From positions 251,263 to 315,262 of the forward strand of contig CAUYUJ010015742.1 in NCBI GenBank assembly GCA_963575745.1: 64,000 nucleotides of DNA, written 5' to 3'. Shown one piece after another: positions 15,105 through 64,000 of this stretch. A program made the position numbers and the translations under genes. The DNA is from Prorocentrum cordatum (Eukaryota > Sar > Dinophyceae > Prorocentrales > Prorocentraceae). Positions within the stretch are counted from its first letter, which is position 1. Each line of letters begins with the position of its first letter. Below the pieces are notes generated by a model. That model saw nothing but the letters and a program-made list of their open reading frames with translations, was not told where the DNA came from and searched no databases.

Positions 15105-18100
15105 TCACAGTCGAGACACCATTGCGCCCGCTTCGCCCGCTCCGGCGGCGGCCAGGTTCGCCATCGGGGCCTCAGCGATGGTCTCCGTCCGCTCCTCCAT
15201 GCGAATGCCCTCCGCGGCCAGCTCTGCCAGCACTGGAGCGTACCACTCCGGGCGCACGGGCCGCTGCACGCCCGTCCCGAAGCGCTCCGCGGGGCCGTCG
15301 AGCAGGAGCTGCGCGCAGATGGCGGCGGCCAGGCCGACTGTGCGAGACATCGCCGTCGCACCGCGGGGGATGCCGTACTCGATCAGCGTGCCGACGCGCT
15401 TCTCCACGGCACCGTCGCGGCGCACGCTCACGAGCTCGTGCTGCATGACGACCATGTCGCGCTCCTCGGGCAGGTAGGCCATCTCCGCGCGCTGCAGCAG
15501 CTGCGCGACGACGTCGACGGGCTGGTCCGCCGCGGCCTCGGCCGGCACCGCGCCGTCGCCCGTCAGCCCCAGCCACGCCACGAAGCCAGCGCCGGTGCTG
15601 ACGGCCTCGGGGCCCAGGCGCTGGGCGGCCAGCGCCTCCCTGACGGAGGCCTCGAGGTCGGCGCGCGTGGCGCCCGCGCCCAGGCCCAGGTGCTGCGCCA
15701 GCCACCGGCAGAGGGGCCAGGCCTGCCCTGGCGCAGCGGCCAGCGCCGCCGACGGGCCCGGCTCCAGCAGGCCCAGGTGCGCGAGGGCCAGCATGCGCTC
15801 GCAGAAGCCCCGGTAGCGGAGGGTGCCGCGGAAGAAGGTGGGCGCGTCCGAGATGCCGTACAGCTCGGCGAACGTCGTGGAGTCTCGATTCGGCAGCACA
15901 TCCAGGGCGAACGCGTTGTTGAGCGTCAACGGCCTCGAGTGGGAGAGCAGCTGGTCCCCGGGCACCTCGCGGAGCTCCCCGTCCTGGCGCCACCGCGCGG
16001 CATTCCGTGCCGCCAGCAGCACCCCCTTCGGGCTCCAGCTGAATTTGTAGCCCAGGGGGCTGGCGCCCACCGCTTCCGGGGCAGGCAGCCCGCCGCACAG
16101 CGAGGAGAAGCTGACGACGTGCCCCTCCGACGCCTTCACCTCGTCGATCATCTTCATTGCGCTCATGTGGTCGATGCCTGGGTCCAGGCCCGCCTCGTTC
16201 ATGATCAGCACCCCGGCGGCGCGCGCCTCGTCGTCAAGCGCTTGCATCTCAGGACTGACGTACGAGGCGGTGACCATGTGCTTCTGGTGCTTGATCGCGA
16301 GCCTTGCGATGCCCACGTGGAGGCTGGCTGGCACCAGCGACACCACAATGTCCGCAGCGCAGACGAGGGCCTCCGTCGCGGCCAGGGCCTCCGCTGTGGT
16401 CGAGGCGATGTCCACTACCTCGGGCCGCACTCGCGAGCCGAAGCGCCGGACGAGGACCTCGACCTCCTTCTGGGCAGCGCTGGCCACAGTCAGGGAGTTC
16501 TCTGGGCGGCGCAGCAGGTACTCGACCAGCGGGCCGGAGACGAAGCCCGCACCCAGGACGAGGACCTCCCGCTTGGGCCCCGCGAGCTGGAGCGTGGCGC
16601 CGCCGCGCGCCTGCGCCGACTTGGCCCTGCTCTCCGGCCCCACTCTGCGCAGGGCGACCTTGGCCTCGGCCGCCACGCCTTCGATCTCGGCCTCCACCTT
16701 CTTCAGGTGCTCCTCCGTCTGGGCCATGACGAGGACGGAGAGGAAGGACTCGTCGTGGGCGGTGGTGCCGACGTCGACGCTCAGGATGTGCAACCGGGCC
16801 TTCGCGGACTCCGCGACGTCGCACACCCTGTTGATGGTGTTGGTGTCGAAGATGTGCCCTGACATCTCCAGCGTCGCGCAGGCTGGGGGCCCGTGCACGC
16901 CATGGGCCTGGAGCCCGGCGGGCCCTCCGGCGGAGCCCGCGTCGTCCGCGTCCGCGCCGCTGAGGCTGCGTAGCTGGTCGATGTAGCGGAAGTCTGGCGC
17001 GAGCCGGCCGCCCTCCGCGATGATCGCCCCGCGGATCTGGGGGGAGAGCTCCTCGGAGTCTCTTGCGTGCGCCAGGTCCGGTAGGAAGGGGAGGAGGCAG
17101 TCCCCGAAGTGCTCCGAGGCCTCGCGGGGCAGCTCCGAGGGCAGGTGGTCCACCGCGTGGAACAGCACCCCGGGGTCGTCGAGGCTGGTGGAGACCTTCT
17201 CCGTGAGAGCGTTGAAGACGAAGAACGGCTGCTCTATGCTGGTGAACTGCCGCGTGGGCACCGAGCCATCCGCGTCGCATGTGATGTCGCAGACGCCGAG
17301 GAGCCGGTCGTGCCCGGCCACGACGTGCTCGTGCAGATCCTCGCGCGTGAAAAGCTTTGGGAAGCGCTGATCCCAGTACATGCCATTGATGATGACCGTG
17401 CTGTGCGGCAGGACTATGTCCTTGAATATAGGCTCAAACTTCTCTGGCTCGGCGTAGTACTCTGCCTTGTCGAAAGGGCCGCCTCCCCGGCGTCTCACCA
17501 TGTCCTCCGCGGTGGCGATGGATATGTACAGCTTGTGGCTGTCCGAGTGCCCGCTGCAGACGCCTGCAAGGTCCCTTGGCGCCACCATCTCGTGTGGGAG
17601 CAGCTTGAAGATGTCCAGGGCCCCGTTGGTGACCTTCCCGCTGCCCGTGAAGACGGCGGTGAACGGGCAGAGGGCCAGTGGGAGGCCCCTCGTCTGGATG
17701 GCCTCGCCGGCCAACTCCACGGCCCGCCTCGCCTCGGCCAGGCTCGGGTACATGAATGCCGAGCCGATGTGGAGGAGGGGCGTGCTGAAGCCCAGCGCCA
17801 GGAAGCGCTCGCCGAGGCCGCGGAGGAAGTCGATGGCACCAGCGTAGCCAGCGTAGTGGCCGAAGGCGACCAATCGCTGATCCCGGCGGTTGCCTGTCTT
17901 GGTGATGCACTCGTAGTCGACGAGGCGGACCTTCCTCTCCAGGGCCGCGTCGAGCAGCGGCATGCCCGCGGGCTGAGCCTTGATTGTGTGGGAGAAGAAG
18001 AGCCACGTGCGGCCTGGCAGAAGCAGGTCGACGGGCACCTCCTTGACCGCACAGATAGTGGCGCACTCCGAGAGGTCCTCGTTGATCTCTGCACCCGCGC

Positions 18101-18317
18101 TGCGGTACTCGTCGTCGGTAAAGACTCGCCTTGTCGAGGGCTGCACGATGATGCGAATGCCTTGGCCGACGAGGGCGCGCACGTGATTGGGCGCCATGGG
18201 CGCTCGCCGCTCCCACTTGTTCTTGTCCTCGCGGCGGATTCCCAATACCCCAGGGCTGCCCCTGTTCTGTCTCTCGGCGCCGCCGTGCGCACGGACCGCA
18301 CCGCCCGGGCTCGCCAT
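15105..18317 (-). CDS. LKR/SDH (AASS): alpha-aminoadipic semialdehyde synthase (lysine-ketoglutarate reductase / saccharopine dehydrogenase)
   Basis: A 1070-residue single open frame, close to the length of plant and animal LKR/SDH. It condenses lysine with 2-oxoglutarate to saccharopine, then oxidises saccharopine to glutamate and aminoadipic semialdehyde (EC 1.5.1.8 and 1.5.1.9), normally in mitochondria. Residues ~28-450 form the LKR domain (REDKNKWERRAPMAPNHV, LFFSHTIKAQ, FTGSGKVTNGALDIFKLLPH). Residues ~485-560 are the LOR/SDH linker domain (HIFDTNTINRVCDVAES). Residues ~580-1050 form the SDH domain, with the nucleotide-binding loop GAGFVSGP at 589-596 and NEAGLDPGIDH at 707-717. The start at 18317 is the first Met in frame; residues 1-27 are not conserved and not clearly a transit peptide. 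No introns. It is the only convincing host gene here, flanked by repeats; no operon-like neighbours. Confidence 0.96.
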   Translation of the reverse strand: MASPGGAVRAHGGAERQNRGSPGVLGIRREDKNKWERRAPMAPNHVRALVGQGIRIIVQPSTRRVFTDDEYRSAGAEINEDLSECATICAVKEVPVDLLLPGRTWLFFSHTIKAQPAGMPLLDAALERKVRLVDYECITKTGNRRDQRLVAFGHYAGYAGAIDFLRGLGERFLALGFSTPLLHIGSAFMYPSLAEARRAVELAGEAIQTRGLPLALCPFTAVFTGSGKVTNGALDIFKLLPHEMVAPRDLAGVCSGHSDSHKLYISIATAEDMVRRRGGGPFDKAEYYAEPEKFEPIFKDIVLPHSTVIINGMYWDQRFPKLFTREDLHEHVVAGHDRLLGVCDITCDADGSVPTRQFTSIEQPFFVFNALTEKVSTSLDDPGVLFHAVDHLPSELPREASEHFGDCLLPFLPDLAHARDSEELSPQIRGAIIAEGGRLAPDFRYIDQLRSLSGADADDAGSAGGPAGLQAHGVHGPPACATLEMSGHIFDTNTINRVCDVAESAKARLHILSVDVGTTAHDESFLSVLVMAQTEEHLKKVEAEIEGVAAEAKVALRRVGPESRAKSAQARGGATLQLAGPKREVLVLGAGFVSGPLVEYLLRRPENSLTVASAAQKEVEVLVRRFGSRVRPEVVDIASTTAEALAATEALVCAADIVVSLVPASLHVGIARLAIKHQKHMVTASYVSPEMQALDDEARAAGVLIMNEAGLDPGIDHMSAMKMIDEVKASEGHVVSFSSLCGGLPAPEAVGASPLGYKFSWSPKGVLLAARNAARWRQDGELREVPGDQLLSHSRPLTLNNAFALDVLPNRDSTTFAELYGISDAPTFFRGTLRYRGFCERMLALAHLGLLEPGPSAALAAAPGQAWPLCRWLAQHLGLGAGATRADLEASVREALAAQRLGPEAVSTGAGFVAWLGLTGDGAVPAEAAADQPVDVVAQLLQRAEMAYLPEERDMVVMQHELVSVRRDGAVEKRVGTLIEYGIPRGATAMSRTVGLAAAICAQLLLDGPAERFGTGVQRPVRPEWYAPVLAELAAEGIRMEERTETIAEAPMANLAAAGAGEAGAMVSRL

Positions 18318-47189: not shown

Positions 47190-47690
47190 TTGCGCGGCGC
47201 TAAGGCGAGAGCCACATATTGAGAAGAAGCTGCCCTCAATGCGTGAAGCGTTTGTAATTTTTGAAACGAATGTACGCGGCGTGAACGCGAAAACCACATT
47301 TTGAAAAGGGACCACCCTCAATCTGTGAAGGTCGTCTAACTCTTTGAAACGAATGCGCGCAGCGCTAAGGCGAGAGCCATCTTTTGAAAACGACCCGCCT
47401 TCAATTCGTGAGACTCTGTCTGATTGTTAATTTCAGCGAATGTGCGCCGCGCTAAGGCGAGAACCACATTTTGAACACGAGCCGCCTTCAATCCGAACAA
47501 GTCTGGCACATTTGAACACGATTGTGCGCGGCGCTAAGGCGAGAACCACATTTTGAAAACCATTCGCTCTCAATCCGTGAAGCTCTTGCAATTTATTTAA
47601 ACGAGTGTGTACCGCGCTATGACGAGAGCCACATTTTGAAAACGACCCGCCCTCCATCTGTGAACCGGTTGTCAATTTCAAACTTCCGAG
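47190..47690. repeat. ~83-bp tandem array, about six units
   Basis: GCGCGGCGCTAAGGCGAGAR followed by CCACATTTTGAAAA recurs near 47193, 47270, 47354, 47442, 47523 and 47608 (steps 77-88 bp). Each unit also carries CCTCAATCCGTGAAG. Copies differ by 10-25 percent. The array ends in a GGAAGTCTCAGGC box at 47705. Confidence 0.88.
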
Positions 47691-47732: not shown

Positions 47733-47810
47733 ATGAGGACGAGGACGAGGACGAGGACGAGGAGGAGGAGGAGGAGGAGGAGGAGGAGGAGGAGGAGGAG
47801 GAGGAGGATG
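47733..47810. repeat. (GACGAG)n/(GGA)n microsatellite, left flank of the YR element
   Basis: Ends GAGGAGGATG at 47810, immediately before the left end of the tyrosine-recombinase element. The GGA run resumes at 53841, so both are one interrupted microsatellite. Confidence 0.95.
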
Positions 47811-47895
47811 TGGGGGCGGGTTCAGGCCAGACGTTACTTTTTGTGCAAGGGGCCGAGGGCGCTCCGAGGCCACAAGCATGCTGGGCACAAAACGG
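47811..47895 (-). repeat. split direct repeat B2 of the YR element
   Basis: Plus strand TGGGGGCGGGTTCAGGCCAG to GGCACAAAACGG; identical to 48001-48085. Confidence 0.96.
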
Positions 47896-47929
47896 GACAC
47901 AAGAGTGAAAGGCGGGAGAGGAGGGACGG

Positions 47930-48000
47930 AAAGACTTGAGCGAGGTAAACGGCGGCGGGTCACACTCGCAGACCACAGACGCCTCTTGCAGAGCTAAATG
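47930..48000 (-). repeat. split direct repeat A2 of the YR element
   Basis: Plus strand AAAGACTTGAGCGAGGTAAA to GAGCTAAATG; matches 53770-53840 except for two transitions. Confidence 0.96.
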
Positions 48001-48085
48001 TGGGGGCGGGTTCAGGCCAGACGTTACTTTTTGTGCAAGGGGCCGAGGGCGCTCCGAGGCCACAAGCATGCTGGGCACAAAACGG
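48001..48085 (-). repeat. split direct repeat B1 of the YR element
   Basis: Directly abuts A2. The A2/B1 border reproduces the junction expected of a circularised element. Confidence 0.96.
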
Positions 48086-48902
48086 TACCACACATGCTAG
48101 CTCGGTATATCTGGCCCCCGAGGCCGCCCCAAAAACAAAACAGAAATGAACACGACGTGATCGCTTTACAGATCCTGGCGATTGCGGCTAAACGACGTGC
48201 GCTGTCCAGCACGGCGTGCACACCCTCAACGGCGACGAGCTTCGGGGCCCTGCGAACTTGGGCCCTTTGGGCCGCGTCCAGGTGAGGAAGCCCAAGAGAC
48301 CCGAGATGAAACTTACCAGATCTGTCACATCTAGCACGCGCACACGAGCAATGCGAGGAAAGCTTGTGCAAACTATTCACATGCCAGCCAACGATGCGCC
48401 ACGTTCGATGCACGCGGCCTTCGTACATACAAGCGTCGAACGTCGCCTCCGACGAGGCCGACAGGAGCAGACGTTGAACGAAGGGGAGGTGCCATAGCGC
48501 ACTGCTAGCAGGGTGCTCGAGGCACGAGAAGCGTTCGCAACAGATGATGAGCATCGTCATTGGCAACATTGACCTGAGCCTGCACCGAGGGACTACGGCG
48601 AGAGAGCCCGAGGGGCCGAGCCGACGACCTGGCGGGGGGCCTGGCGCACACCGACCAGGAGGGAAGCCCAGGCCGAAACCGCGCCCCCGCGACGCAGCAG
48701 CTGCGAATCCAGCCGTGGACGACAGGGGAGACCCCAGGCGCAGCCAGGTCGTCGGTAGGGCACCGACTCGGGTCCAAAAGTGCACTACCCAAGCCCTGGT
48801 GGCGACGAGCCTTGTCGATGGGATTCAACTGTGCGCCGCGCGCAAGAAAAAGGAAGCGAGGCAGGGCGCGGCAGTGAGAGACAGCGCGCGAGAAGAGCCT
48901 GC
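48086..48902 (-). other. 3' non-coding part of the YR element
   Basis: Between the recombinase stop and B1. A 575-residue frame crosses part of it but is the shifted continuation of the RNase H frame, not a separate gene. Confidence 0.6.
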
Positions 48903-50108
48903 TCAACCGAAGCGCCACCTGCGGCTCAGCTGGGGGGCGTGAACCCGCTTGGGCCGCTTCGCAGCCGGCAGGTCGGGTTGCAGAGGCGGCAGCGAACGCG
49001 CCCCCGTAGTCGTCATCGTCGAGATGAGCTCTGCCTCGCGCCCGTCCACGGCGCTGCCCAGCGCCGCCGCGTACTGCGGGGGCGCGGCGATGAGCTGCTG
49101 CATCCGAGGCCGCTTGGCGTAGCGCTTGAGGGGGGCGTCGGTGGCCCACCTCCCGCGGTCCTTGACCTCCTTCCTCGAGCGGCGGCCCGACAGGAGGTCG
49201 TCGGATGCCCCCCCGTGCCTGAGCGTGTACAGGGTCGAGACGCCGTCCCAGATGCCGAGCCTGACCAACGCCTCGCGGAAGACCTGGCGGATCACCGAGG
49301 GCGCGAAGCTCCACGGCGGATCCATCGGAGCGCGGTGGCGCTTCAAGCCCTGGAGGAAGGGCCACAAGCTCGCGTTGTCGATGATGACGCTCTCGTCGGT
49401 CGCACCCGTCTTGCCAGGGCCGCCCGTCGTCGCATCGTTCACGATCATGCCCCAGTGCTGATGGCCGTCGACTGACCCCGCGCGCGGCTCCACCAGGCTG
49501 GCCGCCACCAGGCGATAGGCCTCGCTGGGCCTGAGGCAGGCGTCGAACGCCAGCCTCGCGAAGACCGCCTCCGCGAACCTCCTGTCCTGAATCAGGAGGC
49601 CGACCACGGCGAGCATCGCCAAGCGCGGCAGCGGGAGCCGCATCTGCGGCGGCACTAGGCGGCTCCAGCCCTTGAGAGCCCGCGCGGCTCTCGGCAGAGC
49701 GCGGGGGCCCGCCAGCACGTGCGGCAACAGGTGGCGAAGGGCGGCCATCGTCATGCGCCCCGTCGCGGTGGCGAACCCGTCCAGGCAGAGGTCCCCGAAA
49801 AAGACCAGCAGCAGTGCGTCCAGCTCGGCGGCAGTCTCGAACGACTGCCCCGTCCACGGGCACCACTGGTGGAAGCGGGCGGCGTGGGCGTGGTAGGAAT
49901 CCCGTGTCCGCTGTGTCACCGCGGCGTTCTCGAGGAACGAAGTCTCCCCCCTCGGCAACTGCAGCAGCCCTGGGTGTCGAAGAGACCGCTGGACGTCGAG
50001 CGCCTGGGCTGCACTCGGGGGCCTGGTCGCCTGCTTCAGCTTCGAAGTCCTTCCGCGGCCCCAAGAAGAAGCCCGTCCGCGAAGGGCCATCTGCGACGTT
50101 CCGCTCAC
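48903..50108 (-). CDS. tyrosine recombinase (integrase) of the YR element
   Basis: A 401-residue frame, long enough for a complete phage-integrase-type catalytic domain. R193 lies in CLRPSEAYRL, a lysine candidate at 233, then LYTLRHGGASDD with R297 and H298, W321 in DRGRWATDAP and the nucleophile Y330 in LKRYAKRP. In the usual H-x-x-R box the first position is Tyr294 here. The N-terminal domain (SYHAHAARFHQWCPW) fits a SAM-like core-binding domain. Residues 1-30 overlap, in another frame, the end of RNase H, so the true start is uncertain and the protein was probably made as part of a pol polyprotein. It would catalyse integration of a circular DNA copy in the nucleus. Confidence 0.85.
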   Translation of the reverse strand: MSGTSQMALRGRASSWGRGRTSKLKQATRPPSAAQALDVQRSLRHPGLLQLPRGETSFLENAAVTQRTRDSYHAHAARFHQWCPWTGQSFETAAELDALLLVFFGDLCLDGFATATGRMTMAALRHLLPHVLAGPRALPRAARALKGWSRLVPPQMRLPLPRLAMLAVVGLLIQDRRFAEAVFARLAFDACLRPSEAYRLVAASLVEPRAGSVDGHQHWGMIVNDATTGGPGKTGATDESVIIDNASLWPFLQGLKRHRAPMDPPWSFAPSVIRQVFREALVRLGIWDGVSTLYTLRHGGASDDLLSGRRSRKEVKDRGRWATDAPLKRYAKRPRMQQLIAAPPQYAAALGSAVDGREAELISTMTTTGARSLPPLQPDLPAAKRPKRVHAPQLSRRWRFG

Positions 50109-51082
50109 TCGGAATCCATCGAACGATCGCGCGGATACACGTGGTGAGACTGACGGCGGCCAAGCGTCGGAGGAGATGTCGCAAGCGCTGTGAACCTGTG
50201 CGACCCTTGCCGCAACTCAGAGCCAGAGCCAAATTGTCGACGAGAAATAGAATGCGATGCCTGTGGTTACCCGTTTTTTTCGAGCGGCATGACGAACAGC
50301 AAAGCAGAGCGCCTCCCCCTCATACTCCAGAATGTTGAGACCCATGCGGCGATGACGACTGGAATGAATGATACCCAATCCTCCGAATCGTACAGCACCG
50401 ACGGCACATCGACGGAATCCGAGACGGAGTCGAGGCCCCCCTCCCCGTGCAGCACGTCCGACGGCAACGGGCAACCGACAGCAGCATCTTGAGCGCCCTC
50501 ATCACCTCCTCCACCTTCGAACGCGTGGGCCCTGGCAGAAAGCGCCTGCGAGACTCTGTGCCTCCACTTCTCAGCAACGCGGCCCGTGGGCGAGACGACG
50601 AGGGGGTCCAGCTTTTTCATGCGCGCACCCTTCCCGCGCGGCGAGGCATCTGAGGCGTAGAGGGTGCCTAGCCAAGGCGCGCGAGAGGACGCCCACATCA
50701 AGGGCAACAGAGCGGCCACGGCTGAGAGTTCCTGTCGGACTGAGGGCCATAGCTTCATGGGAGTGGGACCCGCGACTTGAATGAAACGATAAACACCATT
50801 GAATATCGACAGGCACTCTCTCCGCATGATCATGGCCCACGTCGCGGCGTGACCTACTATAGAGGTCAGGGCCCCGCGCGACGCAGACCCGCGGCTCAAG
50901 AGGGCCAGGGTGGCCTGCCGCAGGCGGGCGGGGCGGTCGGGCCTCGCGCGCAGCATCCCTGTCTTGCCCGAGAACTGGATGCCCGTGAAGACGCCCTCCG
51001 TCTGGGCCTCAGTGAAATCGTGCACGGGCAAGCCTCTGGAGGTCAGCGTCTGCGCCAGCTCCCGAGCCTTGGCGGTCGCCAA
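50109..51082 (-). pseudogene. RT thumb and RNase H of the YR element
   Basis: Spread over several frames: 51082-50267 (LAQTLTSRGLPVHDFTEA, FTGIQFSGKTGML, then TLYASDASPRGKG with the first RNase H Asp), 50360-50250 (NILEYEGEALCFAV, the Glu-containing helix) and 50240-50105 (VDNLALALSCGKGR, then RWIPSERNVADGPSR). The order and motifs are those of RNase H domains in DIRS-group elements. At least three frameshifts, one at a homopolymer T run near 50274-50280. Confidence 0.8.
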
Positions 51083-52191
51083 AGCGGCTGACTGTAGAGC
51101 GCCCGGTCCCAGCCCATGGGCACCGCGCGCACAACGGACTGCAGGAGGAAGTGGCGACCCGCGCTCAGGGAGCCGACGGTCTTCAGGCCCACGAAGCGGT
51201 TGGAGATAGTGGGCAGTCGGAAGAAGTCCCCGAGGTCGGGCGGCACCGCCGCGTGGTAGACGGCGCGCTGGATGCCCCCCTGGGCCGCATAGAAGTCGTC
51301 TGACGACTCGAGGGAGGCCCGGGCCGATGGGGTAGGCAGCACGGTGTTCGGAGGAGACTTGAAATAAGTATTCGCCACCCTCGTGTCGAAGACTAGCCTC
51401 AGCTTGCCGCCGTTCTTCCCGACAAAGAAAATCCCGACCGAGTGGGGGGAAGAAGGAGGTGACGCCACAGTCCACTCGATCATGTGGCGCTGCAGCATCG
51501 CGTTCAAAAACCCAGCATAATTCCGAGGATCACGAAGCAGAGGGTCGACGTAGGGCTGCTGAACGCCTAACGACACCTGCAGCTCCTCGACCTCGCCTGC
51601 GGATCTCAGCATACTCTGCCTCCAACCCTGCAACTGGGCGGCATCGGCCTGCTGCGCGACGGAGCTGACCTCGACGGGAGGCCCCGAGAGCGCAGGCCAG
51701 GCCACGAGGGCCTTGTCGCAGGGTCTGACCCGCGAGGCGTTCTGGTAGCCTGGGGTCGTAGAGAGCACCTCTGCGAGGGATGCTTCACAAAACTGGCGTT
51801 GCTCACTGTGTCCAGGAGGCAACTCAAAACGATGGTAATGCTCTTGTAGCTCTCCGACGACAGCGAGCTGCGCCTGGGGGCGGACCACGTCCTCACCCGC
51901 GAGACGTCCCGCAGCATAACGATCATGGAGCCAGTTGAGTGCGTCGATACCCTCGTTGCACCACCGGCGCCAGGCCGCGCCGCGAGCTGCGCGCTGGCGA
52001 GGGCGCCTATCGTTAACGGCGTGAAGACGGTCGTCCACGTCGAGGGGCGGCAGCGGCAGAGCATCCCGCTGGCGAAGGCGGGGGGCCTGTGGCAGGCCCA
52101 AGCCAGGGGGTGGCCCGAGGGGCCTTGGGCTCGGCGAGCTGGGCAGCCCTGGGGCTGGCCCCTCCCAGCTCGCGTCCTCAGGGAGCGTCAT
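51043..52191 (-). pseudogene. reverse transcriptase of the YR element, missing the YxDD region
   Basis: A 382-residue frame. VGIFFVGKNGGKLRLVFDTR is the RT finger; HAAVPPDLGDFFRLP fits motif A; VRAVPMGWDRALY fits motif B. Directly after it the reading jumps, out of frame, to SAALATAKARELAQTL, which belongs after motif C. The polymerase motif Y/F-x-D-D expected between them is absent, consistent with an internal deletion near 51083-51105. The start ATG overlaps the stop of the upstream gag-like ORF as ATGA (52191-52188). Confidence 0.82.
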
Positions 52192-53348
52192 GGCGCCCGC
52201 AAGGCGCGCTCCTCACGCGCCTTGCGTCGTTCCTTCGATGCCGCCGCCTCGTTCCTCATCTGTTCTGCGATAAACTGCATCAGCGCGGGGCAGATGCACA
52301 AGTTACCCTTCGCCTCTCCGATCCCCAGGAAGTGGCCGACCTCCGTGGACAGAGCGTCCTGGGGTGTGGAGTCCTTCTTGCCCTGCCCCTTGAGCGTGGC
52401 GGCTGCCTTGCGAGTCTTCTCGTCGTAGACCCTCTCCTCGATCAGCTGCAGCTGCCGAGCAAGATACTCGAAGCTGGCCAGCTCGGTGATGACGAGCTGG
52501 TCGTGCACCATCGACGTCTCCAGGATGCGGCAGATGGTCTCGTGCTGTTTCGCCGCCTCGTCGCCTTCGGCCAGGCCCATGACGGCGAGCCACCGCGTGT
52601 GCCACGCGACAGTACCTCCAGCCATCCGAAGCATGAACTGGAGGACCCAGAGCAACGTCCGAGGCCCAAGCGCGGGCCAGTCGTCACGCTCGCACTCAGT
52701 CTGCTCCTTGAGCGCGTCGCCGAAGGAGCGGTCGCGGCGACCCCGCGAGTCCCTCGCCACCGCGAGGGCGCGGAAGTCGTTGCTCGGGGGTTCTCCCGCA
52801 GGAGGCGTGGCCGTGCCTCCAGCGTGAGCCCCAGGAGGAGCGCCAGGCCTGAGCGCCGTGGCCAGCGCATCCCCCACGGGGTCGGGAGGCGCGAGAGGCG
52901 CGGAGGCAGCCCCCAGCGCAGGCGGCGCCGCGGCCACCAGCGGACCCGCCGCGGCAGGCACGGGGGCCGCGAGCGGGTCGCGCAGGAAGAGCGGCCCAGG
53001 CGCCATCCCGAGCACATTCCCCTCGCCGAGCTCCAGCGCGAAGTCCTCGTGCGGGAGCGCCGCAGCACCGCCTGCCGCCGCCTCGCGCAGCGCGTCCCAC
53101 ACCTGCACCGCCGTGGGGAGCCGCTTGAAGCGGTAAACACTCGCCGCCTCGATCCCGTCGACCGCGGCGCCCTGCCCGCTCAGCGGCTTGATGCCCCTGA
53201 CGTCCCTGGAGAGCACCTGGTCCTTGTGGTAGACGTCGCCATCAGGAGTCATGATGAGTGCCCCCTGGATGACGAACCGTTCGTGCCAGATCTCTCGACC
53301 AGGCACATTGAACCGAACAGGGTAGAAGCTGCCAGCCGCCATCGGCAT
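52188..53348 (-). CDS. gag-like ORF of the YR element
   Basis: A 386-residue intact frame upstream of RT. The N-terminal part is structured (WHERFVIQGALIMTPDGDVY), the middle is Pro/Ala-rich, and the C-terminal third is helical and charged (HETICRILETSMVHDQLVIT, YLARQLQLIEERVYDEKTRK). Its position before RT suggests the nucleocapsid-like protein of the element. No zinc knuckle. The stop overlaps the RT start codon (ATGA), and its own start follows the previous stop by four bases; a second Met is at residue 3. Confidence 0.65.
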   Translation of the reverse strand: MPMAAGSFYPVRFNVPGREIWHERFVIQGALIMTPDGDVYHKDQVLSRDVRGIKPLSGQGAAVDGIEAASVYRFKRLPTAVQVWDALREAAAGGAAALPHEDFALELGEGNVLGMAPGPLFLRDPLAAPVPAAAGPLVAAAPPALGAASAPLAPPDPVGDALATALRPGAPPGAHAGGTATPPAGEPPSNDFRALAVARDSRGRRDRSFGDALKEQTECERDDWPALGPRTLLWVLQFMLRMAGGTVAWHTRWLAVMGLAEGDEAAKQHETICRILETSMVHDQLVITELASFEYLARQLQLIEERVYDEKTRKAAATLKGQGKKDSTPQDALSTEVGHFLGIGEAKGNLCICPALMQFIAEQMRNEAAASKERRKAREERALRAP

Positions 53349-53352
53349 CGCG

Positions 53353-53763
53353 TCAGCGAGATGCTAAAGCCCTCCGCCGAGCCTGACGGGCCTGCTCCGC
53401 CGCCGCCTTCTCGAAGTCGGTCTCCCCGTGGAAAGAGCCCTCCTCCTGCACACTCGTGAGTGCTGAAGGCGCTGACGGCCTCCTCCTGCGACGAACCTCG
53501 CGGAGGACGAAGACAGCGGAGACCAGGAGCCCCGCCCCGAAGCCGTGCACGAAGCCGAGACCCCAGCACCACGAAGAGGCGGACGAGACAGGCGCCGCCG
53601 TCAGGAGCCCCTCCCCAGCAGGGCAGGAGCAGGTAAGGGGTGGGCAGTTCAGCGTCGGCTTGCAGATGCACGCGGGACAGGGATCGGCCGCAGCACGGAC
53701 TATCACTGCTGTCTGAAGGGAGCGAACGAAGTCGGGCACCGCCTCAACGAGAAACGCTTGCAT
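53353..53763 (-). CDS. small Cys-rich, single-pass membrane ORF of the YR element
   Basis: A 136-residue frame that starts seven bases inside the A1 repeat. Residues ~28-47 hold six Cys in DPCPACICKPTLNCPPLTCS. Residues ~63-88 (WCWGLGFVHGFGAGLLVSAV) form a plausible membrane helix followed by a basic stop-transfer stretch REVRRRRR. The tail is charged. The stop is four bases before the next ORF start. I recognise no family; a membrane protein is not a standard component of YR retrotransposons, and chance is possible. Confidence 0.5.
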   Translation of the reverse strand: MQAFLVEAVPDFVRSLQTAVIVRAAADPCPACICKPTLNCPPLTCSCPAGEGLLTAAPVSSASSWCWGLGFVHGFGAGLLVSAVFVLREVRRRRRPSAPSALTSVQEEGSFHGETDFEKAAAEQARQARRRALASR

Positions 53764-53769
53764 TCCCTG

Positions 53770-53840
53770 AAAGACTTGAGCGAGGTAAACGGCGGCGGGT
53801 CACACTTGCAGACCACAAACGCCTCTTGCAGAGCTAAATG
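53770..53840 (-). repeat. split direct repeat A1 of the YR element
   Basis: Right border of the element. The last plus-strand bases GAGCTAAATG are followed directly by the resumed GGA microsatellite. Confidence 0.96.
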
Positions 53841-54090
53841 AGGAGGAGGAGGAGGAGGAGGAGGAGGAGGAGGAGGAGGAGGAGGAGGAGGAGGAGGGGG
53901 GGAGGAGGGAGAGGAGGAGAAGGAGGAGGAGGGGAGGAGGGGGAGGAATTCGGATCCACGGGGTGTCAGGGAGGATGAGAGGATGAGGAGGATGAGGAGG
54001 ATGAAGGAGGAGGCAGAGGAGGAGGAGGAGGAGGAGGAGGAGTGAGGAGGAGGAGGGAGGAGGAGGAGGAGGGAGGAGGAGAGGGGCAGC
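53841..54090. repeat. (GGA)n microsatellite, right flank of the YR element
   Basis: GGA triplets to 53950 and again at 54005-54085, with GGATGAGGAGGATGAGG units between. The ATG-containing variants show that a target with ATG inside GGA repeats existed locally. Confidence 0.95.
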
Positions 54091-58504: not shown

Positions 58505-59445
58505 GGAGTGTCCCCAGTCTTAAATGATTGTTGTTGTTGTTGTTGTGGAGTTTTATTGTCTTAAGATAATTACGGTTGACCCCCTCCAAATAATATTATT
58601 TTTGTTTCAAAGTGCTGCTCGCGGGGCTCGCGTCTTTTTTATATAAAGGAGAGCGAGGGGTCACCAAATTGTGCACGTGGCCCCCGGTTTACAACAACAG
58701 CGGCTCCCGCCTGAAACTTCCCCAGAATTTATTCTCAAATCGCGCTGTCGCGCGGGGCGTCCCCACACACTGTATATGAATCGCGCTCTCGCGTGGAACT
58801 TCTTTGCCATTTGTTCAGACGCCGCGCCTTCGATACTCATGGATCACGCTTTTCCTTTGATTTCCGAGCGATTTATTTGGGAATCGCGCAAACGCTCGAG
58901 ACCTCCTCGCGATTCAAGCAGGACGCGCGCTGCAGCAACCCGTCTGCTCGACCTGGCCGCCTGGGCCAGCCTTTCCGACGCGCCCGTGAGGGTCTACCCG
59001 CCCGGTCTGCCCATCTGGTTCTGCCACGTGTTTTCTGCTCCTAGCCCCCCTCCTGCTACTTTCTCTCGTGCTCCATCCTCTTCCCTCCCCCTTGTCCCTT
59101 ATTTCCGCCCCGTCCTCCCTTCCCCTGTCTTGGGGATTGCGCGAAATACACGTTGCAGATAAGGAGCAGATCTGCCCCCAAGGGTGTGCAATCGAAGACG
59201 AAAGCGGCGGGTAGCGAGGGTTCGGGATCTATTTGTTGAGTGGCCCGCGAGCAGATAAGAGCGACCAGCCCCAACATGATTGTTGAATTCTCATTAGAAA
59301 ATATGGTTGGTCCCCCCTCCGATAACCATTGTACTTTTCAAGTCAAGTGCTCCTTCTAGGGCCCGCACCTGGTTTGTTACAAGGTATGGGGCCACCAAGC
59401 TGTAGTGTATTCCCAAATCGCGCTCTCGCGCGGGACTTCCTCACA
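58505..59445. repeat. 630-bp satellite units, diverged; last one interrupted by an insertion
   Basis: One full unit (58505-59280) and the beginning of another (59280-59445). The latter ends at CGCGGGACTTCCTCACAA, in the middle of a sub-repeat, where the second YR element begins. Confidence 0.88.
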
Positions 59446-59589
59446 AATCGAGCCGCGCGTGCAGGGCCTCGACCCCGCCTGCTGCCGCCGTCGGTGGGAG
59501 CGGCGCGGCGCGAGGCTGCCCCCCGCGGGCGGCTGCGACGGGCCCAGGCCCGACGCACCGCCGCTGGGCGGCCTCGCGCCACGCCTGCG
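59446..59589 (-). repeat. putative split direct repeat B2 of the second YR element
   Basis: Starts AATCGAGCCGCGCGTGCAGG. Matches 59984-60128 with one substitution and one single-base indel visible. Confidence 0.9.
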
Positions 59590-59688
59590 CGCAGCAGACA
59601 GGGCGGAGGGTGGGAGAAAGAACGCGCGCCAGGGAGGCACCCGCCGCGCGCGCGCGCGGGCGCGCGCGCGCGGCGCCTCCTCCAAATG

Positions 59689-59829
59689 CAAATCGCCTGC
59701 GAAGCGCACGCGCCGCGGGGGCAGCGACCCCCCCCCGCGGCGACGCAACCCCGGCGCTAGCAAATCACCTGCGAAGCGCACGCGCCGCGGGGCAGCGACC
59801 CCCCCCCCCGCGACGCGCAACCCTGGCGC
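59689..59829. repeat. 72-bp tandem duplication in the putative A2 region
   Basis: CAAATCGCCTGCGAAGCGCA at 59689 returns as CAAATCACCTGCGAAGCGCA at 59761, followed by CGCGCCGCGG and a C run in both. Confidence 0.9.
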
Positions 59830-59975
59830 GCGACGGCGCGTTGGCCCGCGCCTGCGCAGCGAGGCCGCGGTCGCGTCGCACTGCCGCGCGCGCGACCTAC
59901 GCGCAACCGTGGCCGATTTGTGCCCGCCCACAACGGTGAACGTCCGCGTCTGCGAGCGGACTTGCCGCCGTGGGC

Positions 59976-61694
59976 CTACCACCAATCGAGCCGCGCGCGC
60001 AGGGCCTCGACCCCGCCTGCTGCCGCCGTCGGTGGGAGCGGCGCGGCGCGAGGCTGCCCCCCGCGGGCGGCTGCGACGGGCCCAGGCCCGACGCACCGCC
60101 GCTTGGGCGGCCTCGCGCCACGCCTGCGTGCAAACCCAATGCCACACGGCACGCAGGCGACACGGGCCGGCAACGCGCGCCCACCCGCTGCCGAACGCGC
60201 GGGGGCAGAGCACGGGCGCCGTCGCGCGCACCCGCCCACGCACAGAAGCGAAACGTGGCGGCGCTGGCCGCCGGCGCCTAGCAGGCACCCTCGTCCGAAT
60301 CCGACTCCAGCATGTGCGCCTGGCGCGAGCAGCGCGCCGCGGCGCTGGCGGAGGGCGCGTGGCCCCGCCTCCACGACCGCGTCCCTTTCCAGATCGCCAC
60401 GGTCGAGATACGCCATGAAAGCGCAGGACCGCCACTCCCCGGCCGCGAGAATCTCGGCCAGCGTCGCGCCAGCCTCCTGCAGGTCCTTGGCGTGGCCCCT
60501 GCGGAGGTCATGCAACCGAAACAGGCTCGCCCCCTGGACACCGAGGGCAGCGAGCATCTCGCGCAGGGTCCGCGCAGCCGCCGAGATGCCTCCGAAGAGC
60601 CCGTGGCCCAGCCCGCAACGCGCCACCCAGGGGCCCAGGGTGTGCACGGGGCACGTGGCGCGGCACGATGAGCACCAGCACTTCCGCGACAGGCGACTGC
60701 CCTGCGGCCGGTTCTTCCGCCGCCGCAGCAGCAGCGTGAGCTCCGATTTGCCCAGCGCTAGCGCCGCTTGAAAGGGCGGCGCGTCGCCGGCGTCGGCCAC
60801 GCGCACGGCCGGCAACGCCTCGCTGGGAACACGCAACAAGAACGTGTAGGCGAAAAGGAAAAGCAGCGACGCGCGGAGCCACTCGGGGCGGCGCGCGCCC
60901 AACTCGACCAGCGCGGCGACCGCGCTCTTACGGATGAACAAGCGCGGGCGCGGAGTCCAATCGGCCCGCGCCCGGGCGGCGGCGCGCGCACGCCTGACCT
61001 CGGGGCGGTCGAACACGTCGACGCAGACCCCAGTCAGGAGGCAGCCGATCTTAACGTAGCTGCAGTAATTTGCGCACGTCTCCCCGCAGCGAAAGAGGGC
61101 GCTCCAGGCGACCAGGTCCGCGCAGGCTGGCGGGAGCTGCATGCACGGGTATTTCAACATTCTGATGCAGTAGGCCTCCCAACATTTGAGGCCGCTTCTC
61201 ACGCTTGGGAGCGACCGTGCGCATGGTTGCAGCATAGCGCGAACGCGTTCCTCCTCCCGCCAGCGGGCCGCGTCCGCCGGACTGCGGAGGCGAGCAGCGG
61301 CCTCGGCGAGCGCCGCCCGGGGCCCGCGCGTTATTGGCAGCGCGACCGGCGCGCCCAGCTGGTCGAGGACGCTCGGGGCGGGCGTCTCGCGAGCCACGGC
61401 GCGCGGGCATGCGCAAGCGCGCGGGGCCGATGACGCGCGCCTGTGGCGGCCCAGGGGGTGACCCCGGGGCGCTCGGCGCCGCGCGTCTCGCCGGCGACCG
61501 GCTGCGGGCGGGCGCGCGCCCTCCAACTGCCGAGCCCACGGCGACGGGCGCGCCTGCGAGGCGCACGCGCGGCGGGGGGGGGGGGCGCGCGCGCCAAAAA
61601 TCCTCGCGCAGCCGAGCCTCGGCGCGCAGCAATCTTCGCGGCTCTGAATAATTCGTGCAGGACTTCGACATTGGCCTGCGCGGTGACCGGTCAA
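59976..61694 (-). CDS. tyrosine recombinase of the second YR element
   Basis: A 572-residue frame. The catalytic set is complete: R288 in FLLRVPSEAL, a lysine candidate at K327, H395-D-L-R398 in LFRLHDLRRGHAKDL, W421 in AAGEWRSCAF and nucleophile Y429 in FMAYLDRGD. Between the Arg and His boxes sits CWCSSCRATCPVH (residues 339-351), which may bind zinc. The N-terminal ~110 and C-terminal ~130 residues are Arg/Ala/Pro-rich and of doubtful reality; the C-terminal end runs into the B1 repeat. No visible break in the catalytic core. Confidence 0.85.
   Translation of the reverse strand: MTGHRAGQCRSPARIIQSREDCCAPRLGCARIFGARAPPPRRACASQARPSPWARQLEGARPPAAGRRRDARRRAPRGHPLGRHRRASSAPRACACPRAVARETPAPSVLDQLGAPVALPITRGPRAALAEAAARLRSPADAARWREEERVRAMLQPCARSLPSVRSGLKCWEAYCIRMLKYPCMQLPPACADLVAWSALFRCGETCANYCSYVKIGCLLTGVCVDVFDRPEVRRARAAARARADWTPRPRLFIRKSAVAALVELGARRPEWLRASLLFLFAYTFLLRVPSEALPAVRVADAGDAPPFQAALALGKSELTLLLRRRKNRPQGSRLSRKCWCSSCRATCPVHTLGPWVARCGLGHGLFGGISAAARTLREMLAALGVQGASLFRLHDLRRGHAKDLQEAGATLAEILAAGEWRSCAFMAYLDRGDLERDAVVEAGPRALRQRRGALLAPGAHAGVGFGRGCLLGAGGQRRHVSLLCVGGCARRRPCSAPARSAAGGRALPARVACVPCGIGFARRRGARPPKRRCVGPGPVAAARGGQPRAAPLPPTAAAGGVEALRARLDWW
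59984..60128 (-). repeat. putative split direct repeat B1 of the second YR element
   Basis: Starts AATCGAGCCGCGCGCGCAGG. It overlaps the last codons of the recombinase frame, which ends at 59976. Confidence 0.9.
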
Positions 61695-61967
61695 CCTTCC
61701 AGGTCTGCGGCGTCTGCACTGGCGAGCTCGCAGGCTCGTGCGAAGCCGTTCTCAGCCAGGAAATCAGCAGCCCAGGCGACGGCCGTCCTGGCGCTGTCGG
61801 GCGCAAGGAACACAATTCAAGGAATAACGACATGATGCCGCGCGGCACGCCTGACAATGCGAGCGACGCGCCTGAGGCACTGGCCGCGTGCACTCCGCTT
61901 GCGACAAAACGCGGGACCCTAGGATGACAAGCGCGGCGGCGCGCCGAACGCTTTGCCGCGCCCAAAC

Positions 61968-63120
61968 TTAAGTATCGCGACGCCCCGACGCACAAGATGG
62001 CACCCGGGCGCGACATGGCGCGCGGTTTAGCCGAAGAGGCGGGCCACAGAGAGAGCGCCCCAGGCATCCGCGTGCCAGAATTCTTCGTCGAGCCACGGGC
62101 GCGTGCGCACCGCGCCGATGCGTAGCAGGAGTTCGTCGCCCCCCCTGCGACACGCTGCGCCCGCGGCCAGCCCGCAGCACCGCGCGGCGCGCACGGGCGC
62201 GCCGAGAAGGCAGATCGGCCAGATTCTCAGCCGTGGGCACGCGGAAAAACGCGAGGTCAACGTCGAGCTCCACCGCGCGCCTCCACATGGAGTGGACGAT
62301 GCACGAGTGGTCGGCGGATTTCGCGGCGCCCTTCCGCAGGCAAGACTCCGCGCCGGTATTGTCGCTGTAAATATGAAAGTCGCAACCTTGCACTTCCCCT
62401 GAGCGCAGCGAAGACGAGGGGCCGGACCTGCCCGCCGGCGCGGGCAGTCGCACGCGAAAGCAATGCCTGTAAAGGTGCACATGCCCAGCGCGATAGACAG
62501 GAACTCCAGCCCCTGAAGAAGAAAAAAGAATACCAAAGCCATTAAACCAGCCCCTGAATCTGGTCGTCCCGGCGACGCTGGAACGACGCCATCAAGGAAT
62601 CCGGGGCGACCATGGAAGTGAAACGGATGCCCGTGGCGGTGACGAGCACCGCGGCCACGCACGGTGGTTGGCCCGACGCGTCCGCGAAGAGAGTTGCGCG
62701 AGGCCGCGCCTTGTCGGCCCGCGGCCGCGCTTGGCACAAGTCCATGGCCAAGACCTCGCGCCACCACTGCAGGGCAAGCATCAACGGCTCCTGGGCCTTC
62801 GATGCCCCGCGATGCGATTGCGCGTGCAACGGCCTGCGAGCACGAAGCGCGGCGCCCCGCCCCCCCGGGCGCGCGGGGGCAGCGCCGCGCCTGAGGAGGG
62901 CGCGCCCCAGGCGGCGGAAGAGATGCGACGCTGCCCAGGCCAAGCCCCAGGCCAGCTTGGACGATGCGCCTGCACAGCGAACGCAAGGCCCCGACACATT
63001 AGGGGGGACGCGCGAGCCGCCTGGCGCGAGGGCGCGCGTCGCGAGCGCCTCGCCGATGACACGCTGCCACTTGGCGGTCTTCGCGGGTGCGGGACGCGCG
63101 CAGAACGCGCGTGGCAGCAC
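61968..63120 (-). pseudogene. RNase H of the second YR element
   Basis: Three frames carry the parts in order: 62542-63120 with ATLFADASGQPPC (first Asp), a middle frame with LMALVFFFLLQGLEFLSIAL (Glu helix), and 61968-62480 with FHIYSDNTGAESCLRKGAAK (Asp) and FFRVPTAENLADLPSRR. Two frameshifts. It would degrade the RNA strand during cDNA synthesis. Confidence 0.82.
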
Positions 63121-64000
63121 CTGGCGATGCGCGCAGCCGGCCGGCCGGCGCGTCGCGCCAAGGCCGCCCCGCCGTGATTTCGAGGCCGAGGATGACCAGC
63201 GGGGGCCCCCAGGCGATCTTGTCCGGCGCCACCGCGCCTGGGCCGAGCATCAGCTGAATTAGCTCCGCCAGCTGCGCTGCTGCGTGCTCCACCACTTCGG
63301 GGTGATCCGGCCCAAAATAATCATCCACGTATCGCAGCGCGGCGATCCGCAAGAGCACGCGCGCCTCCTCCGCGATGAAGGCACCCACTCGCGCCCAGCT
63401 GTGCACCGACGACGTGGCCCCGAAGGGCGCTGCCGCGTGCTGCGCCGCCCAGACCTGCCCGGCGGCGCTGAACACGATCCAAGCGAACCGGCGGTGCTCA
63501 GCGCGAATGGGCACGCGACGAAAGGCAGCGTCGATGTCTGCCTTCCAGAGGACGGGTGCCCGCCCCGCAACTTCCTGGAAGATGCGAGCTGCTTCGAAAA
63601 GCGCGTCCACGGCATCGTGGTGGAGCCGCTCCTGAGGCCGCGTCGCTTCGTTAATCCTAGCCTTGGTCATGTCGTCGACCAACCGGAGTTTCGAGGACCC
63701 GTCGTCACGGAGCTGCTCAACCGCAAACCTCGGAGCGATGACGGCCCCGTCCAGGCACACGTCGCGGAGCGGCACCGGGCAACTGATGCGCCCCAGCTCG
63801 GCCTCGCCCCGTGTCTTGCGGAGGATGGCGTCGCCGTGCGCGCCGTCGCGGAGGCCACAGGAAATGTCGCGATTTGTCGACTCGGCGTTGCCGAGCAGCT
63901 CCGCGATGCCCAGACGGGGAGGGAACACCTCTGGGCTGCCGTGGCCCGACCGCGGGAGCTCGCCGACGAGGGGCGCCCCCGTCCTGAAGAATTCCACGCA
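62999..64000 (-). CDS. reverse transcriptase of the second YR element, 5' end outside the window
   Basis: At least 332 residues. KLRLVDDMTKARIN (finger), LWKADIDAAFRRVPI with D154/D156 (motif A), AAPFGATSSVHSW (motif B), ALRYVDDYFGPD with D225/D226 (motif C) and VILGLEIT (motif D/E region). All polymerase motifs are present in one frame, unlike the first element. The Met near 63997 is probably internal; the frame is expected to continue beyond the window. Confidence 0.9.
   Translation of the reverse strand, partial: CVEFFRTGAPLVGELPRSGHGSPEVFPPRLGIAELLGNAESTNRDISCGLRDGAHGDAILRKTRGEAELGRISCPVPLRDVCLDGAVIAPRFAVEQLRDDGSSKLRLVDDMTKARINEATRPQERLHHDAVDALFEAARIFQEVAGRAPVLWKADIDAAFRRVPIRAEHRRFAWIVFSAAGQVWAAQHAAAPFGATSSVHSWARVGAFIAEEARVLLRIAALRYVDDYFGPDHPEVVEHAAAQLAELIQLMLGPGAVAPDKIAWGPPLVILGLEITAGRPWRDAPAGRLRASPGAATRVLRASRTREDRQVAACHRRGARDARPRARRLARPP

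Follow-up and report, generated by a model that had tools for sequence, protein, structure and literature searches.

A tyrosine-recombinase retrotransposon with split direct repeats in Prorocentrum cordatum: border triplets and a candidate target half-site

Between positions 47811 and 53840 of the window, the 64,000 nt stretch of P. cordatum contig CAUYUJ010015742.1 that was analysed, the minus strand carries what its sequence indicates, with a probability of about 0.8, to be a recently inserted tyrosine-recombinase retrotransposon with the split direct repeats of the DIRS order, the circular form of which would exchange with the chromosome at a site N1-T-N2 beside a half-site on the side of repeat B2. 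This kind of element is already known; the valuable part is the data on borders and target motif. Knowledge of site choice and entry by the cDNA circles of tyrosine-recombinase retrotransposons comes mainly from a model, and the 24 left and 22 right borders described here, where the inner junction is constant and the outer triplets vary, place the crossover almost to the base. The family also offers a target motif that can be tested and the basis of a concrete assay for recombination. A fuller proposal, that the recombinase picks sites by one half-site and exchanges at a single shared base, leaving hybrid NTG/ATN borders, while 13 of the 15 copies in the largest clade, with a dead reverse transcriptase, have spread in trans, is one for which we would give even odds.

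Structure and coding content of the element

Read along the minus strand, the element has the order A1-ORFs-B1-A2-34 bp-B2. Repeat A1 forms the 5' end (53770..53840, 71 bp) and differs from A2 (47930..48000) at two positions, being 69/71 identical; B1 (48001..48085) is identical over its 85 bp to B2 (47811..47895), which forms the 3' end and is separated from A2 by a 34-bp spacer (47896..47929). These are the coordinates and lengths proposed in the earlier note. A scan of the window with both 24-base ends of the repeats, allowing up to six mismatches, found only these four matches, and near-exact repeats over 71 and 85 bp are far beyond chance. The ATG triplets previously placed at the two outer borders and the A2/B1 border were likewise recovered, at 47808-47810 on the B2 side, at 53838-53840 as the end of A1 and at 47998-48000 as the end of A2 (CAT on the coding strand), as was the GGA microsatellite outside both borders, in arrays at 47761..47808 and 53842..53895. 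When joined, these arrays are in phase both with one intervening ATG (AGG AGG ATG AGG) and with none (AGG AGG AGG); as both fit equally well, the empty site is not uniquely readable from the window alone, and the claim that it could be so read has to be withdrawn. The only inverted repeats found in the element are one internal pair, 29 nt long at 79% identity. A diverged 83-bp minisatellite (47191-47664) adjoins the element, and the G+C content of the window is 60.9%; a review (PMC11453091) lists 59.7 in its table entry for P. cordatum, presumably the G+C of that species.

The first open reading frame, ORF1 (53353..53763, minus strand), has 136 codons, is cysteine-rich and likely encodes a membrane helix; it has 61% identity over 38 aa to the P. 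cordatum protein P0049, and a 13-aa piece of it recurs in P0050 from the same species. It is followed by a gag-like ORF of 386 codons (52188..53348, minus strand) with 78% identity over 358 aa to P0049 and no Pfam match, the stop codon of which overlaps the start of the reverse transcriptase as ATGA (52191-52188). The reverse transcriptase itself is in two parts: a first half (51094..52191, within ORF 52191-51043), aligned to relative P0051 and having motif A as QGGIQRAVYH, and a second half with RNase H (50077..51076), identified by tblastn with P0052, P0053 and P0046, which runs in the frame of 51475-50267 and then in that of 50283-50077, ending RWIPSERNVADGPSR. Between them, at 51077..51093, lie a frame change and the place of a missing YVDN-bearing segment, four relatives having about 46-49 codons more here. 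The last gene is an open recombinase ORF of 401 codons (48903..50108, minus strand). Searching the six window ORFs or ORF pieces with Pfam gave no reverse transcriptase, gag or recombinase match; the sole row returned was DMAC1_Dmo2 for ORF1 (E 0.048), below its cut-off. The element is structurally complete, as had been claimed, in its repeats and ends, but not in its reverse transcriptase gene, which is frameshifted, lacks YVDN and has glycine at motif A.

The recombinase ORF has a best relative at 1e-186, and R193, K233, Y294, R297, W321 and Y330 are invariant in all 14 rows of the alignment (A3). The catalytic set of tyrosine recombinases consists of R, K, H/YxxR, H/W and Y. The ORF also matches the phrog_1 integrase (2.9e-5), whilst a sequence search of the PDB matched nothing and no relatives were confirmed in viral and prokaryote contigs. 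Conjugative transposons of the Tn1549/Tn916 type insert as circles at sites with little homology; these are bacterial DNA elements that are not known to have an RNA step. Their integrase (6emz, 6en2) shares a tyrosine recombinase fold with the window element, by comparison of folds alone: the predicted structure resembles Cre, XerH and the Tn1549 integrase, and matches both of these entries, with modest Foldseek TM-scores (0.28-0.47 over the match list). The last gene of the element thus encodes a tyrosine recombinase, with a predicted Cre/Xer/Tn1549-like fold.

The excerpted accounts of Ngaro, PAT and VIPER (PMC6681497, PMC8547959) give the same A1-ORFs-B1-A2-B2 order of split direct repeats, and that of SymbioDIRS from Symbiodinium (PMC5890265) gives A-coding-B-A-B. 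The earlier identification as a tyrosine-recombinase retrotransposon with split direct repeats stands, whereas its assignment to the Ngaro type is not settled, because the repeat order is shared with PAT-like and VIPER-like elements and with SymbioDIRS. Ngaro elements, as outlined for Cafeteria (PMC8547959) and Xenopus (PMC9210276), further resemble the window element in having a gag-like ORF, RT/RNase H, a tyrosine recombinase and a length of about 6 kb; they differ from it, by description rather than by RT/RH/YR phylogeny, in that the window element has no recognised hydrolase ORF, an extra small ORF1 and a target motif. No methyltransferase was found in the six ORFs or pieces by a Pfam scan that also missed the reverse transcriptase and recombinase. 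SymbioDIRS, in the excerpted text of PMC5890265, shares the dinoflagellate host, the repeat order and a separate recombinase ORF; it differs, again by description and not by RT or recombinase sequence, in that no DNMT domain was found in the window copy, the Dnmt3 domain of SymbioDIRS-Dnmt3 Pol being absent from the ORF pieces in the same Pfam scan. DIRS1-like elements, in the partial accounts of PMC3266345 and PMC5633606, have in common with the window family a 3-bp circular junction, integration of a circle without target duplication, and varying start and end triplets. In contrast to the direct repeats at the ends of the window element, they have inverted terminal repeats and complementary regions, and DIRS-1 is described in PMC5633606 as inserting without apparent sequence preference, unlike the window family with its target motif. 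Within the titles and abstract openings of literature on dinoflagellate DIRS, Ngaro and tyrosine-recombinase elements, which included few subscription papers, this family was not found.

Sister insertions, border triplets and target motif

A search of the 4.13-Gb assembly for sister copies with common ends yielded at least 25 distinct insertion loci, including that of the window. Three queries were used, the best 40 being scored of 52, 49 and 46 candidates, with nearly the same set each time, and loci L014-L039 and L041 were examined. Borders could be read on the left in 24 and on the right in 22 of the 25 loci, the left of L031 and the right of L030, L033 and L037 being missing, cut or unclear. 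The window insertion is also present on a second contig, C9313 (L014, not counted as a separate locus), where the left 1000 bp and the element are identical, and the right flank, in which the array has changed, is 98.7% identical over 2.46 kb. Two of the examined loci, L039 and L041, proved to be the distal ends of L016 (C17261) and L030 (C15322); the termini of these two copies are separated by about 25 kb and 11 kb, respectively, which suggests later insertions inside both elements. A single B-like match on C14367 falls outside the locus counts. Terminus 18/20-mers matched three viral and two bacterial (Hydrogenophaga and Comamonadaceae) records, probably by chance.

Of the 22 distinct loci with a reported inner junction, the window included, 21 have ATG there; the exception is L038 with GCG, and L029 has an extra C after the ATG. 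By contrast, the outer triplets vary. All 24 on the left, or B2, side are NTG (ATG 13, GTG 5, CTG 5 and TTG 1), two of these borders (L021 and L029) having been shifted one base by hand owing to an extra base in B2. On the right, or A1, side, 19 of 22 are ATN (ATG 12, ATA 3, ATT 3 and ATC 1); the remaining three are ACT, ACG and GTG, which might have arisen by mutation or be target bases retained through mismatch repair. The odd first base of the GTG, in L025, is the same as that locus's own N1. These triplets suggest that the target and the circle share as little as the central T, with ATG on both sides as a special case, and the simplest reading would be an exchange at that T, giving N1-T-G on one side and A-T-N2 on the other. 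Of 21 pairs of flanks compared, 17 share no repeat of at least two bases; the other four (the window, L026, L028 and L038) are in triplet arrays, where a target duplication is not distinguishable. The earlier note had offered two ways in which it might fail, namely different ends in other copies and DDE-like target duplications of 4-9 bp; the sister copies have common end points, and no such duplication occurs outside the triplet arrays.

A one-sided motif, W-T-R-A-Y-A-N-N-R-N-[T], was found in the flank on the B2, or 3', side. Eight left borders in triplet-repeat surroundings (the window, L017, L026, L028, L030, L036, L037 and L038) were set aside; the other 16 have, from position -9 to position -1 before N1, A in 11 and T in three, T in 15, R in 15, A in 16, Y in 15, A in 13, two unconstrained positions, and R in 16. 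The best nine columns hold 9.43 bits of information, against a mean of 1.88 and at most 3.59 for a null of 2000 random window sets; the borders that served to find the motif also served to test it, and the random windows were taken from these same flanks. For the 14 right flanks tested, the value is 2.18 bits, with no excess over the null. The strict core T-R-A-Y-R occurs in 17 of the 24 left borders (11 of the 16 non-array borders), against a background of 1.1%. The GGA site of the window copy lacks the motif positions T(-8), Y(-5) and A(-4). Preferential insertion into GGA arrays, of which those with at least eight units make up 1.8% of the window, was set aside as an explanation: none of the other listed borders is a GGA array, and the site of the window copy seems rather to be off-motif.

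Three other accounts of these borders and flanks were weighed. The earlier note had integration occurring through a shared ATG, and a requirement for a full target ATG identical to the circle junction would accord both with the 3-bp model published for DIRS1-like elements (outlined in the excerpted text of PMC3266345) and with the ATG found at both borders of the window copy and of copies in ATG arrays; however, 11 of the 24 left triplets are GTG, CTG or TTG and 10 of the 22 right triplets are other than ATG, such that the strict rule is contradicted for this family and the account improbable. More improbable still is that the ATG copies represent a 3-bp target duplication from a staggered cut, rather than strand exchange with a circle: the window copy does have the same triplet on both sides, yet many sisters have unlike outer triplets together with an unchanged inner ATG, the enzyme encoded is a tyrosine recombinase, and the scanned ORFs have no match to a DDE integrase family in the Pfam scan, which also missed the reverse transcriptase and recombinase. 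Regarding the motif, the pattern in the left flanks might stem from places where insertions concentrate, ATG triplet arrays for example, or from selective survival in AT-rich places, instead of a target preference. That eight of the 24 left borders were classed as having triplet-repeat surroundings lends this some weight, but the signal persists among the other 16, where T(-8) is found in 15 and A(-6) in all, and the pattern is position-specific and one-sided, with right flanks at the null level; hence we consider it unlikely.

The joined flanks of L025 match diverged tandem-repeat units, several of which span the joint. Five such relatives of the empty site (L042-L046), 73-81% identical, all align across it. 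Three of them (L042, L043 and L045) have T at the central position and two (L044 and L046) have C; the alignment of L044 contains a one-base gap three bases ahead of this position, and the other four are free of gaps within ten bases of it. As repeat units rather than alleles, these may be said to support, but not prove, a target T and an insertion without loss or gain of target bases.

Exchange at the central T can be placed in a cycle as follows. RNA running from A1 to B2 would be reverse transcribed, a step taken from the DIRS/Ngaro model, with the internal B1-A2 block serving in that model as the template that joins the two ends. The resulting circle would carry the junction B-CAT-A on the coding strand, and ATG on the other, which the recombinase would exchange with a chromosomal site N1-T-N2. 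The left product would then consist of the target base N1 and the TG of the circle, and the right product mostly of the AT of the circle and the target base N2, with nothing longer duplicated. The preferred half-site, W-T-R-A-Y-A-N-N-R, would adjoin N1 solely on the side that becomes B2. The window copy would have entered an off-motif GGA array.

Reverse transcriptase defects and age of the insertion

The reverse TRANSCRIPTASE of the window copy is broken, its two halves aligning to the relatives P0051, P0052 and P0053, amongst which P0051 (4.5e-4) and P0053 (0.0065) weakly match RVT_1. P0051, which is filed under a Planctomycetes bacterium MAG, resembles the reverse transcriptase of the window element at 27% identity, and is perhaps eukaryotic contamination in the bacterial MAG. 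The distance from the PMG motif to the helix after YVDN/YVDD is 71-74 residues in four relatives and 74 bases in the window, from which it follows that the YVDN segment has gone and the frame has changed. In motif A, the window has GGIQ where P0051 has GDVQ, the codon being GGC and encoding glycine in place of aspartate. The motif A aspartate is a metal ligand of reverse transcriptases. With RT and RNase H present as homologous pieces in several frames and without catalytic motifs, the enzyme of the window copy should not work.

The motif A codon encodes glycine in 13 and aspartate in 10 of the 23 distinct loci read. All 13 glycine copies, the window and 12 sisters, fall within one group of 15 copies (support 100/100, midpoint root), which also includes two aspartate copies, so that the label needs three changes on the tree, and one change with two reversals, or recombination, must be assumed. 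One of these two, L023, has different codons neighbouring its aspartate, as if a patch from another lineage had been acquired through recombination or template switching. Seven loci outside the group retain both the aspartate and YVDN. A>G hypermutation was considered as the source of the Asp>Gly and Tyr>Cys changes and dropped, since the two strands differ only modestly, with 83 A>G changes over 151 A sites and 75 T>C changes over 184.

Judged on the divergence between A1 and A2 and between B1 and B2, which at 1.3% is the least of 19 copies (the others having 2.0-11.1%), the window copy appears to have been inserted recently. Since the loss of the motif A aspartate is common to 12 sister insertions, the glycine lineage was probably copied by an enzyme supplied in trans. 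It is possible, though doubtful, that the element instead moved with a working reverse transcriptase that decayed after insertion, the shared glycine being tolerated or having arisen through assembly or gene conversion. In keeping with this, the YVDN deletion of the window was found in no other locus read, YVDN or a variant of it, for example CVDN, being retained in other copies. However, 13 distinct insertions, all on the same side of a branch, carry the glycine, which replaces a metal ligand, and the repeats of the window copy are the least diverged of the 19. The shared loss of the aspartate opens a testable question of trans-mobilisation in the DIRS order.

Other features of the window

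An open ORF of 1070 codons on the minus strand (15105-18317), with saccharopine dehydrogenase and AlaDh/PNT domains, is an apparent single-exon host gene resembling the bifunctional lysine-ketoglutarate reductase/saccharopine dehydrogenase. A second retroelement, not similar by eye to the first, occupies 59442-64000 on the minus strand, at which point the contig ends with the window. It has a reverse transcriptase with YVDD (ORF 62999-63997; RVT_1 7.4e-4, below the cut-off), an ORF at 59976-61694 that is recombinase-like by eye and without a Pfam match, and a direct repeat of about 150 bp (59442-59594 and 59980-60132), the two copies of which could be B2 and B1.
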